From contig NZ_JH976535.1 of the NCBI RefSeq assembly GCF_000183545.2, positions 1,417,890 to 1,481,889 of the forward strand: a stretch of 64,000 bases of DNA, given 5' to 3'. A program made the translations under genes and the position numbers. The notes beneath the pieces were generated by a model. The model was not told the DNA's origin. It ran no database searches and worked only from the letters and a program-made list of their open reading frames with translations. Below are positions 53,204 to 57,400 of the stretch, one piece after another; within the stretch, counting starts at the first letter, position 1, and every line of letters starts with the position of its first letter. Source of the stretch: Thermaerobacter subterraneus DSM 13965 (GTDB lineage: Bacteria; Bacillota; Sulfobacillia; Thermaerobacterales; Thermaerobacteraceae).

Positions 53204-53233
53204 TTGTACGGGCATCCCGGCTGCGCCTATAAT
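53204..53233 (+). promoter_or_regulatory. Promoter of the cytochrome c maturation operon
   Basis: TTGTAC (53204-53209), 18 bases, perfect TATAAT (53228-53233), about 30 bases upstream of ccmE. Confidence 0.6.
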
Positions 53234-53263
53234 CGGGTGACCGTGCCTAGACCTGCAAGGGCG

Positions 53264-53677
53264 GTGACGGCGTTGTCCATCCGTGTGAAGGTGGCTGCGG
53301 CCGTGCTGGTGGTGGTGGCGGGTATCGCCTACCTCTCCTTGATGGGTTTTCAGAGCGCCAAGACCTACTATCTCTCCGTGGACCAGGCCCTGGACCAGGC
53401 TGCCGGTCTGGGCGACCGGTTCGTCCGGGTCCAGGGCAAGGTGGAACCGGGAACGGTGGACTGGGCCGTGCAGCAGGTGACCCTCCGGTTTGCCATGACC
53501 GGGGATTCGGGCCGGACCCTGCCCGTGGTCTACAAGGGCGTGAAGCCCGACCTGCTTCAGGACGGCGTGGACGTGGTGGTGGAGGGGCGCCTGCAGGGCG
53601 CGACCCTGGTGGCCGACCGGGTGATGGTGAAATGCCCGTCCAAGTACGAGGCGGCGGGGACCCAGGCGGCCCGGTGA
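53264..53677 (+). CDS. ccmE: Cytochrome c maturation protein CcmE (heme chaperone), Cys-type
   Basis: Heme chaperone anchored by one N-terminal helix (VKVAAAVLVVVAGIAYLSLM) with an extracytoplasmic OB-fold domain; 137 residues. Family blocks: LGDRFVRVQGKVEPGTV, LPVVYKGVKPDLLQDGVDVVVEGRL (two pieces) and LVADRVMVKCPSKYE at the C-terminus. The heme-linking position of E. coli CcmE is a His in an HxxxY motif; here the motif is CPSKY, i.e. CxxxY, known from a minority of CcmE proteins. GTG at 53264 with AAGGG upstream was chosen; GTG 53243 and TTG 53273 are alternatives. It is the first gene of the ccm operon. Confidence 0.9.
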   Translation: MTALSIRVKVAAAVLVVVAGIAYLSLMGFQSAKTYYLSVDQALDQAAGLGDRFVRVQGKVEPGTVDWAVQQVTLRFAMTGDSGRTLPVVYKGVKPDLLQDGVDVVVEGRLQGATLVADRVMVKCPSKYEAAGTQAAR

Positions 53678-53766
53678 TCAGGCGCCCGGGACCGTCCGCA
53701 TGGCGGGACCGGTCCCGGCCGGACGGCCCGGGCAAGGGCGTGAACGCTAGGGGCTGGAACGGCGGA

Positions 53767-55038
53767 ATGCGAAGATCTGGTAAGGAGACGGCCGCCGCCC
53801 GGGGCAGCCGGCACCCCAGCCCGGGGTGCCTGGAGCGCCCCTCCGCCGGGGTGGCGGGAAGAAAGCCATGGGATCGCCGCACGCAGGCCTGGACCGCCAC
53901 CGTGCTGGTGGTGGTCTTCGTGCTGGGGATTGCCTTGGCCCTGGCCGGAGGAGGAACCCGCCCCGCCGCGGCGGCGGAAGGGGCCCCACCGCGCGACGGC
54001 CAGGTGCCGGCTGGTCCCGGGGCCGGCACCCCCCGGGGGCAAGAGGCAGGGGCTGAAGCGGTGACGCCGGGGACCTGGGAGCGGGTCGCCCTGGTGGTCC
54101 ACCCCGAGCCCGCCGGCCAAGGCATGGCCGTGCTGGTGCTGGCCCGCTGGCCCGGCCAGGAGGGACCGGGCGCCGGTGCCGACGGGGCCCTGACCTTGCC
54201 GTCGCTCCGGCTGGCCCAGCCTTCCCGGCCGCTGCCCGAAGGCCTCCGCTGGACGGGGGAGACGCTGGAGGACGCGTCGCCGCCCCCGCCGGGCGAAAGC
54301 CGCGACTACGCGTATGCCTTCATTGCCGATACCCGGGCCAGCCGGGGGCGGCTGGTGGTGGACCTGCCCGCGGCCGTGGACCAGCTGCTGGTGATGACGG
54401 TGGCCGGAACGCTGGAGGCAGCCGGCAACGGGCTGCAGCCCGCCGGCACCGTGCCGGGAACGGACCTGGGCATGCCGGGCAACGACCTGGCGGTGTGGCG
54501 GGCAGGTCCGTTGGAGGCGGGCACCTACACGATCCTTCTCATGCCGCCGGGAGTTGCCGCGGGGCAGGCGGGCGGCTCGCCCCAGTCCGGGACCGGTGAG
54601 GGTGGCGGGACGGCACCGGGAACGGGCAGCCCGGGGAGCGCGCCGGGGAGCGACCTCCTCCCGGGCCAGGGTGACTTGCGGGCCCGGGGGGCCACCGTTG
54701 CAGGCGGGGCCGGTACCGGCGGCGGGGCGGGGGTCGCCGCCGCGATGGCCGCCGGAGCGGTGGTGGCCCTGGCGCTGGCGGGCGCCGCCCGCTGGCGGCG
54801 GGGCCCGCGCCGCTGGTGGCTGCGCCGCCGGCTCTTGATCGAGGCCATCGTCGACCTGGACCGGGCCCATGCCGCCGGTGAGGTGCCGGAGGCCCTCTAC
54901 CGGGAGGAGCGCCGGCGCCTGGTGGAGGCGGCGGTGGCGGCCACCCGGCGGGCGTGGACGGCCGGTGGCCCCCGCCTTCCGGGAGCCGGCGAGGCGGTCG
55001 CGGCGGAAGCCCCTCGAGGGGAGGCGCCGGTCCGGTGA
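53767..55038 (+). CDS. Membrane protein of the ccm cluster with a CcmI-like C-terminal segment
   Basis: 423 residues. An N-terminal hydrophobic segment (ATVLVVVFVLGIALALAGG) and Ala-rich stretch look like a signal peptide or anchor. A large extracytoplasmic, beta-rich region follows, then a Gly-rich linker and a second membrane helix (AAMAAGAVVALALAGAA). A short cytoplasmic tail reads LIEAIVDLDRAHAAGEVPEALYREERRRL, quoted in halves: LIEAIVDLDRAHAAGEVP and ALYREERRRL. This tail matches the L-x-x-LDxxxxxGx(I/V)xxxxYxxxR pattern at the start of CcmI. ATG at 53767 has a weak GGCGGA site. The stop overlaps the ccmA GTG. A role in apocytochrome handling is inference from context. Confidence 0.65.
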   Translation: MRRSGKETAAARGSRHPSPGCLERPSAGVAGRKPWDRRTQAWTATVLVVVFVLGIALALAGGGTRPAAAAEGAPPRDGQVPAGPGAGTPRGQEAGAEAVTPGTWERVALVVHPEPAGQGMAVLVLARWPGQEGPGAGADGALTLPSLRLAQPSRPLPEGLRWTGETLEDASPPPPGESRDYAYAFIADTRASRGRLVVDLPAAVDQLLVMTVAGTLEAAGNGLQPAGTVPGTDLGMPGNDLAVWRAGPLEAGTYTILLMPPGVAAGQAGGSPQSGTGEGGGTAPGTGSPGSAPGSDLLPGQGDLRARGATVAGGAGTGGGAGVAAAMAAGAVVALALAGAARWRRGPRRWWLRRRLLIEAIVDLDRAHAAGEVPEALYREERRRLVEAAVAATRRAWTAGGPRLPGAGEAVAAEAPRGEAPVR

Positions 55039-56081
55039 CGCAGGGGGCGCCCCGGCCGGTCATACCGGCCGGTGACCTGGCGCCCGGCTCCCGGCCCGGA
55101 CGCGGCGCACCGGTGCTGGAGCTGGCGGGCCTGGAACGGGCCCACGGTGACCAGGTGGTCTTCCGGTCCCTTCACTGGAGGCTCGGCCCGGGCGAAGTGG
55201 GCGCCGTCATGGGGCCCAACGGTGCCGGCAAGACCACCCTGCTGCAGGTGGTGGCCGGCCTGCTCTGGCCCAGTGCGGGCACGGTGCGGGTGGCCGGTGC
55301 CCCCGCCCGGCCGGCGGAGCCCGCCTGGCGGCGCCGGGTGGGCTACGTGGGGCATCGTCCGCTGGCCTTTCCCGAGCTGTCGGCCTGGGAGAACCTGATC
55401 TTCTTCGGCCGCCTTTACGGATTGTCCCGCCAGGAGGCCGAGGAGCGGGCCCGGGAGCTCCTGGACCGGCTTAACCTGGACGCCGTCGCCGCCCGGCCGG
55501 CGGCGCACCTCTCCCGTGGGCTGGCCCAGCGGCTGGAAGTGGCCCGGGCCATGATGCACCGGCCGCTTCTGTGGCTGTGGGACGAGCCCTTCACCGGCCT
55601 GGACGCCGGTGCTGCCCGGTTGCTGGAAAACCTGGTAGAGGAGCATGCGGCGGCCGGCGGGACGGCCGTGGTCGTCCTGCACGAGCCGGACCGGGCGCTG
55701 CGCCTGGCCGGCCGGCTGCTCCTGCTGGCGGGGGGGTCCGGTCACGACGTCCCGGCGGCAGGCGTCGGGACGGCGGACCTGGAGGCCTGGCTGGCGTGGG
55801 CAGCCCATGCGCCGGGGCGGGCCGCTGGCGGCCCCGCCGGCGGCCTGGTTTCGCCGGCCGGCGCGCCGGGTTCCCGGGGGGGCACCCGCGGCGAGCAGCT
55901 CCGGCTCCGGCGGCGGGCCCGAGGCGGGCCCACCGCGGTCCGTGCCGGCGGGGCTGCCGGCGCCGGATCCGCGCCCGCTGCCGCCGGGGGCCCCGGCTCC
56001 GATGGCAGCGGGCGCGGCGCAGCCGCCCGAGCCGGCCCCGACGCCGGTGGGGACCGTCCTGAGGACCCTGGTGGAGCTTGA
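55035..56081 (+). CDS. ccmA: Heme/cytochrome c maturation ABC ATPase CcmA
   Basis: ATPase of the CcmABCD complex that releases holo-CcmE. 348 residues, of which about 230 form the ABC domain: Walker A MGPNGAGKTT at 59-68, ENLIFFGRLYG, signature LSRGLAQRLEVARA, Walker B LLWLWDEPFTGLD, and switch His in VVVLHEPDRALRL. The remaining 115 residues are Gly/Ala/Arg-rich and unlike CcmA, and they overlap the 5' part of the ccmB frame. The end of the real protein is therefore uncertain, and a frameshift near 55.8 kb is possible. GTG at 55035 overlaps the upstream stop (GTGA). Confidence 0.88.
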   Translation: MTQGAPRPVIPAGDLAPGSRPGRGAPVLELAGLERAHGDQVVFRSLHWRLGPGEVGAVMGPNGAGKTTLLQVVAGLLWPSAGTVRVAGAPARPAEPAWRRRVGYVGHRPLAFPELSAWENLIFFGRLYGLSRQEAEERARELLDRLNLDAVAARPAAHLSRGLAQRLEVARAMMHRPLLWLWDEPFTGLDAGAARLLENLVEEHAAAGGTAVVVLHEPDRALRLAGRLLLLAGGSGHDVPAAGVGTADLEAWLAWAAHAPGRAAGGPAGGLVSPAGAPGSRGGTRGEQLRLRRRARGGPTAVRAGGAAGAGSAPAAAGGPGSDGSGRGAAARAGPDAGGDRPEDPGGA

Positions 56082-56715
56082 TCTCCGCCAGGAATGGCGC
56101 CGGCGGGAGGGCCTGGCCAACCTGGCCACCTTCGTCCTGCTGGTGGGGCTGGCTTTGGCCTTCGCCCTGGATCCCGGCCGCCATGACCTGTCGCCCCTCA
56201 TGGGGGGTCTGGTCTGGGTGGCATTCTACTTCGCCGCCGTCCTTCTCTTCGGCCGGGGGTTTGCCCGGGACGCGGACCGGGGCACCCTGGACGGCCTGCT
56301 GCTGGCACCGGCCGACCGCAGCGCCCTCTACCTGGCCCGGGTGGTGTCCCAGGGCGTTCAACTGCTGGCCCTGGAGCTCGTGCTGGGACCGGTGGTCATG
56401 GCCTGGCTGGGGTTCCAGGGACCGGTGCGCTGGGACGGCTTCCTCCTGGTCCTGGGGCTGGGGACGGCGGGGCTGGCGGCGGTAGGCACCCTGCTGGGCG
56501 CCTTGACGGCCGCCGTGCGGGGGCGGGAGGCGCTTCTGCCCGTGCTGTTGTTCCCCCTGACGGCACCGGTGCTGCTGGCGTCGGTGCAGGTCGCCGGCGC
56601 CGCCCTGTCCGGGGCCCCCGAACAGGCGGCCCTTTGGTTTCGGGTGCTGGCGGTGTATGATACCATGTTCCTGGTCGCCGGCGCCCTGCTGTTCGACTAT
56701 GTGGTAGCCCGCTAG
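56002..56715 (+). CDS. ccmB: Cytochrome c maturation permease CcmB
   Basis: Six-helix membrane partner of CcmA. Family blocks: LRTLVELDLRQEWRRREGLANLATFVLLVGLALAFAL (seen as DLRQEWRRREGL then a TM), GLVWVAFYFAAVLLFGRGFARD, DRGTLDGLLLAPADRSALYLAR, and C-terminal helices ending in LFDYVVAR. With ATG at 56002 the product is 237 residues, close to the usual 220. GTG at 56047 is an alternative, and neither has a good ribosome binding site. The frame is open and coding-like well upstream to about 55.8 kb. It overlaps the ccmA 3' end in another frame; ccmC follows after 10 bases. Confidence 0.87.
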   Translation: MAAGAAQPPEPAPTPVGTVLRTLVELDLRQEWRRREGLANLATFVLLVGLALAFALDPGRHDLSPLMGGLVWVAFYFAAVLLFGRGFARDADRGTLDGLLLAPADRSALYLARVVSQGVQLLALELVLGPVVMAWLGFQGPVRWDGFLLVLGLGTAGLAAVGTLLGALTAAVRGREALLPVLLFPLTAPVLLASVQVAGAALSGAPEQAALWFRVLAVYDTMFLVAGALLFDYVVAR

Positions 56716-56725
56716 GAGGCGAGCC

Positions 56726-57400
56726 ATGTCACGCCTGGCGGCAGCTTGGACGGTGACAACCTACGGCGCGCTGGTCGGGGCCCTCTACATGGCGTTTCGC
56801 TACGCACCGCCCGAACGGGTGATGGGCAACGTCCAGCGCATCTTCTATTTCCACGTGGCGGCGGCCTGGGTCGGCTTCCTGGCCTTCGCCATCGTCTTCG
56901 CGGCCTCCATCGCGTACCTGCGGGGCCCGCAGCGGCGCTGGGACCGGCTGGCAGAGTCGGCTGCCGAGCTGGGGGTCCTCTTCACCACCATCACCCTGAT
57001 CATGGGCTCCCTCTGGGCGCGCGCCGTCTGGGGCGTCTGGTGGACCTGGGATCCCAAGCTCACCACCACGCTGATCCTCTGGTTCCTCTACGCCGGTTAC
57101 CTGCTCATCCGGGCGGCGGTGGACGATCCGGCCGCCCGGGGCCGGTATTCGGCGGTCCTGGGCATCGCCGGGTTCCTCAACGTGCCCATCGTCTACATGT
57201 CGTCGGTGTGGTGGACCTCCATCCATCCCGTCCTGCGGGGCGGCGGCGACATGAACCTGGACCCGGCCATGCGCCTGGCCCTGCAGGCGGCGGTGGCAGC
57301 CTTCACCCTGCTGTTCTTCCTGCTGCTCAACCAGAGGCTGCGGCTTGCCCGCCTGGCCGATGGCGTGCGGCAAGCCCGGGCCGGGACGGAGGAGGGGTAA
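56726..57400 (+). CDS. ccmC: Heme exporter/handling protein CcmC
   Basis: Heme-handling membrane protein that presents heme to CcmE; 224 residues with six helices. The tryptophan-rich heme-binding motif WGVWWTWDPKLTTTLILW is intact, and His residues flank it (IFYFHVAAAWVGF; SIHPVLRGGG). ATG at 56726 has AGGAGG upstream. It is tightly packed between ccmB and ccmD. Confidence 0.93.
   Translation: MSRLAAAWTVTTYGALVGALYMAFRYAPPERVMGNVQRIFYFHVAAAWVGFLAFAIVFAASIAYLRGPQRRWDRLAESAAELGVLFTTITLIMGSLWARAVWGVWWTWDPKLTTTLILWFLYAGYLLIRAAVDDPAARGRYSAVLGIAGFLNVPIVYMSSVWWTSIHPVLRGGGDMNLDPAMRLALQAAVAAFTLLFFLLLNQRLRLARLADGVRQARAGTEEG

Follow-up and report, generated by a model that had tools for sequence, protein, structure and literature searches.

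The window analysed here, a stretch of 64,000 nucleotides from Thermaerobacter subterraneus, carries on its forward strand the genes ccmE, ccmA, ccmB and ccmC of cytochrome c maturation System I. The gene for the heme chaperone CcmE lies at 53213-53677 (PF03100, 90.9 bits) and ccmC at 56726-57400 (PF01578, 125.7 bits; the TIGR01191 ccmC model scores 131.4 bits, under its cut-off of 186). Between ccmE and ccmA is a 468-residue open frame (53632-55038) that has no match in Pfam or NCBIfam and that, judging by its position, perhaps encodes a System I accessory protein. CcmF (PF16327) and CcmH (PF03918) are found in all four genomes of the genus, and in the genome of the window (G000) they lie elsewhere on the same contig. 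The genome contains one copy of ccmB, along with ccmC, ccmE, CcmF and CcmH, and so has these principal components of System I. The likeness to E. coli CcmABCD extends to the same families and the same A-B-C order, and to a genome with CcmE, CcmF and CcmH as well.

The ccmA open frame runs from a GTG codon at 55035, which overlaps the stop of the preceding open frame, to a stop codon ending at 56081, and encodes 348 residues that form an ABC ATPase domain followed by a long low-complexity tail. Its Pfam ABC_tran match (106.2 bits) ends at residue 186 and its TIGR01189 ccmA match (151.7 bits against a cut-off of 131.6) at residue 218, and by these two models the product is CcmA; a second ccmA model, NF010061, scores 147.9, under its cut-off of 195. 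The ccmB frame, open from 55645 to 56715, is a different reading frame. Residues 141-336 of this frame match the heme exporter membrane domain CcmB (PF03379, 92.2 bits against a cut-off of 24.9), and the gene is placed at 56047-56715 by this match and by alignment with the congeners, whose CcmB proteins are 80-95% identical to that of the window. Because the stricter equivalog model TIGR01190 falls short of its cut-off (56.6 bits against 156.2), the product is named a CcmB-family protein on the basis of PF03379 and gene context. No single open frame spans both domains in the window, ccmA and CcmB being out of frame with one another, and the frame conflict that the initial annotation had described at this junction is therefore genuine. 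Its figure of about 115 residues for the ccmA tail is likewise close to the 113 codons that separate 55740 from the stop.

Of the three nearest candidate starts, GTG 56047 is close to where CcmB homology begins; ATG 56002 and GTG 56071 are the others. A Shine-Dalgarno-like sequence is absent from the 20 bases upstream of both ATG 56002 and GTG 56047, so the original remark that the ccmB starts lack ribosome sites holds for these two. It does not extend to GTG 56071, which has a weak TGAGGA upstream and, at 8 bases upstream of the ccmA stop codon (56079-56081), overlaps the end of ccmA. No plasmid match was found for positions 55000-57400 of the window.

The arrangement in the congeners is different. 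In all three congeners examined (G001, G002 and G003), CcmA, a linker rich in Pro, Ala and Gly, and CcmB form one open frame, and for the nearest of these, G002, Pfam places both ABC_tran and CcmB in a single frame of 610 residues. Across the genus the linker between the two domain matches is 101-141 residues long. The window is 96% identical to G002 over the two domains, and their linkers differ by gaps of 12, 6 and 6 bases plus a net single base, the last of which aligns at a run of seven G on the forward strand (55876-55882). A second aligner divided each of the 6-base gaps into two pieces and set the one-base difference at the margin of this run; which base of the run or its margin is taken is an arbitrary choice. 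G002 is the one congener by which the break can be positioned, since the linkers of G001 and G003 are too divergent. G002 has no such run at the corresponding place. Ahead of the run, the first part of the linker (55740-55875, forward strand) is read in the ccmA frame in the window and as part of the fused frame in the congeners, as aligned with their loci (L003-L005), while beyond it the second part (55883-56064, forward strand) corresponds to the congener linker in the ccmB frame only. A one-base indel in a CcmA-CcmB fusion, one of the explanations first put forward for the conflict, is thus supported by a fused frame in each of the three congeners and by a net difference of one base from the nearest; the comparison of the junction in relatives that had been called for found no congener in which the two proteins are separate and their genes overlap as here. 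It is this comparison with relatives that raises the observation above chance.

The frame assignment of the linker can be examined in several ways. When the translation of 55883-56070 was aligned to the G002 linker and compared with 500 shuffles per frame, the ccmB frame scored 185, with 42 identities in 66 columns (shuffle mean 58.8, maximum 91), against 50 for the ccmA frame (mean 48.1, maximum 76) and 36 for the third frame (mean 32.1, maximum 57). This match indicates which frame of the window corresponds to that of G002, but it derives in part from DNA homology and is not an independent proof of coding. No codon-phase bias was seen among the substitutions between the window and G002 over 55883-56064, which number 8, 10 and 11 by position modulo 3. 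The initial annotation had also counted A or T at third positions by hand, in 5 of 57 codons of the ccmB frame and 15 of 58 of the ccmA frame, and this count was essentially right: over 55880-56080 we obtain 6/66 for the ccmB frame, 15/66 for the ccmA frame and 10/67 for the third, and over 55883-56081 the corresponding values are 5/65, 16/66 and 10/66. In a GC-rich linker, such a bias taken by itself is weak to modest evidence. By a position-specific likelihood the frame switches at 55908, with a broad plateau (about 55795-55945) that covers the run of seven G without singling it out. A second run of seven G lies within ccmA at 55730-55736, where G002 differs at one base; as the length is equal in the two genomes, that run does not explain the frame change.

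The spacing of the domains adds to this picture. The gap between them is 117.33 codons in the window and 117.0 in G002, as against a median of 42.67 codons (15.33-77.67) in the other loci with separate genes. By both its length and its linker score, the window thus retains a linker of the fused kind that is homologous to that of its fused relatives.

To place the genus in a wider context, we surveyed the same locus in the class and in a sample of the phylum. CcmB matches over the family cut-off were found in 83 of the 154 genomes of the class, and loci were examined in 76 of these, 7 having been dropped as they gave weak matches only (E above 1e-10). At one locus (L025) ccmA is absent within the contig stretch. 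Both genes are present at 75 class loci, of which 10 carry the fusion and 65 have separate genes if the window is placed in that group; with the window left out, separate genes are found at 64 of 74. The fused loci belong to the 3 congeners, one further genome of the same order (G005), 4 genomes of one family (f39) and 2 of another (f45), and their inter-domain stretches comprise 58-141 residues, of which 37-60% are Pro, Ala and Gly. Only one of the 64 separate class loci other than the window (L030) has a ccmA stop beyond the start of the CcmB domain. In the phylum sample 100 of 398 genomes exceeded the CcmB cut-off. The 7 loci fetched outside the class were those that combined an E-value below 1e-10 with an open frame of 326-457 residues, and none of them was fused; the remaining matches at that E-value have frames no longer than 283 residues, which could not accommodate a fusion, and weaker matches, some with longer frames, were left out of the fusion count. 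Overall, the combined set holds 82 loci with both genes, 10 of them fused and 7 of those outside the genus. On a quick tree of the 82 loci the fusion requires at least 3 changes, or 4 with the window coded as separate, although the number of origins is uncertain, given weak deep forks and some long branches. At three loci of one genus (L027, L029 and L030; g20) the ccmB frame extends back across ccmA as an open frame of 452-455 residues, with the two genes in different frames; these long frames are probably due to chance in stretches of 75-76% GC.

We conclude that the genus encodes CcmA-CcmB as one polypeptide, and that in the assembly of the window a net difference of one base in the linker, most likely located in the run of seven G at 55876-55882, disrupts the reading frame of the fused gene; we put the probability of this reading at about 0.88. 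The break would have arisen at this run either as a homopolymer miscall or as a recent slippage mutation, and of the two we slightly favour the miscall. Comparison of the window genome with G002 over about 333 kb of alignment does not separate error from mutation, since the share of runs with a net indel rises with run length alike in both genomes: for G/C runs of four it is 112/4041 in the window genome and 83/3949 in G002, and for runs of seven 4/25 and 3/20, respectively. A strict frame-break scan returned 6 candidate broken ORFs in the window genome and 5 in G002; on these numbers the assembly does not appear poor overall, and poor assembly as a general cause, which is weakly supported, was set aside. 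(A preliminary scan on whole stop-to-stop frames had flagged 21 and 22 ORFs, many through end changes, and had missed the ccmA-ccmB junction.) Of the 11 candidates, 10 were searched against Pfam, the eleventh spanning two loci: five had no match, in three the change precedes the matched domain, and in two it falls inside the gene. Both of these in-gene breaks are in the window genome, one being ccmA-ccmB, where it lies between the two domains, and the other a multicopper oxidase. The window genome is therefore not riddled with errors, yet such breaks do occur in it. The multicopper oxidase lies outside the window (contig C1 of G000, near 1134204; L072 near 13204) and differs in length from its G002 counterpart by 4 bases, owing to which its conserved C-terminal part is in another frame.

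The other branch of this reading, a true recent mutation that has split the fusion, is a possibility to be taken seriously, if somewhat less probable than the miscall. It would yield a long-tailed CcmA and a CcmB made by termination-reinitiation, for example at GTG 56071, whose weak TGAGGA and overlap with the end of ccmA suit such a mechanism. Slippage would be natural at a run of seven G, CcmB retains its 80-95% identity to the congeners, and the split would restore the arrangement that is usual elsewhere in the class. On the other hand, neither ATG 56002 nor GTG 56047 is preceded by a ribosome-site-like sequence, and beyond the run the linker still shows the third-position bias of the ccmB frame, as would be expected if the split were very young or unreal.

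A programmed shift producing a CcmA-CcmB fusion had also been proposed at the outset; it would be a +1 ribosomal frameshift or transcriptional slippage at the run, giving free CcmA together with the fusion. Across the run both frames stay open, the step from ccmA to ccmB is +1, and conserved domains lie on either side. However, the site is not kept: the nearest congener lacks the run there, and all three congeners read through in a continuous frame that needs no shift. Free CcmA would, moreover, have no obvious use if the equal amounts of A and B in the E. coli complexes, as given in the cited parts of the structural reports (PMC9616876, PMC10457321), are a guide. We regard such an event as very unlikely, and hold just as improbable the broader idea that fusion recurs in the class and that a slip-prone G run in one species gives free CcmA plus the fusion, and with them a tunable ratio of ATPase to heme translocase. 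Least probable of all are ordinary overlapping genes with an ancestral long ccmA tail, the congener fusion being later or artefactual: separate genes are the rule in the class (65/75, window included), but the three congeners are all fused, the domain gap of the window is within a third of a codon of that of its fused sister, and ccmA extends past the beginning of the CcmB domain at just 1 of the 64 other separate loci of the class.

Some ABC transporters carry the ATPase and the membrane domain in one chain. The Thermaerobacter fusion likewise links an ATPase covalently to a membrane domain at 1:1, with the ATPase N-terminal and a membrane domain of the CcmB family. In the E. coli complexes A and B are separate, whereas in the genus Thermaerobacter they are joined in one polypeptide by a long low-complexity linker. 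A table in a 2011 review gives CcmA and CcmB without known variants, and the portion of that review cited here describes a CcmH-CcmI fusion in E. coli and some other gamma-proteobacteria, the two proteins being separate elsewhere (PMC3601427). The CcmH-CcmI fusion likewise joins two System I proteins, but it belongs to the heme-attachment arm and not to the ABC transporter. No report of a CcmA-CcmB fusion was found in the open-licence literature, among the matches listed. We view the fusion as a modest new variant of System I; the frame break as such is ordinary, and it illustrates how the length of one homopolymer can make a fused gene look like an overlapping pair in annotation.

A natural CcmA-CcmB fusion would supply the two proteins at a fixed 1:1 ratio, and two fused copies may assemble into a (CcmA-CcmB)2 core that would bind CcmC and CcmD. 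Such an arrangement fits the E. coli structures, where, in the sections cited, Ccm(AB)2 is accompanied by one or two CcmCD (PMC9616876, PMC10457321). A single-chain exporter core could also aid structural work. In Shewanella oneidensis, according to the cited part of one report, surplus CcmB expels heme and impairs growth (PMC11868835), and a fixed ratio of the two proteins would guard against a surplus of this kind.
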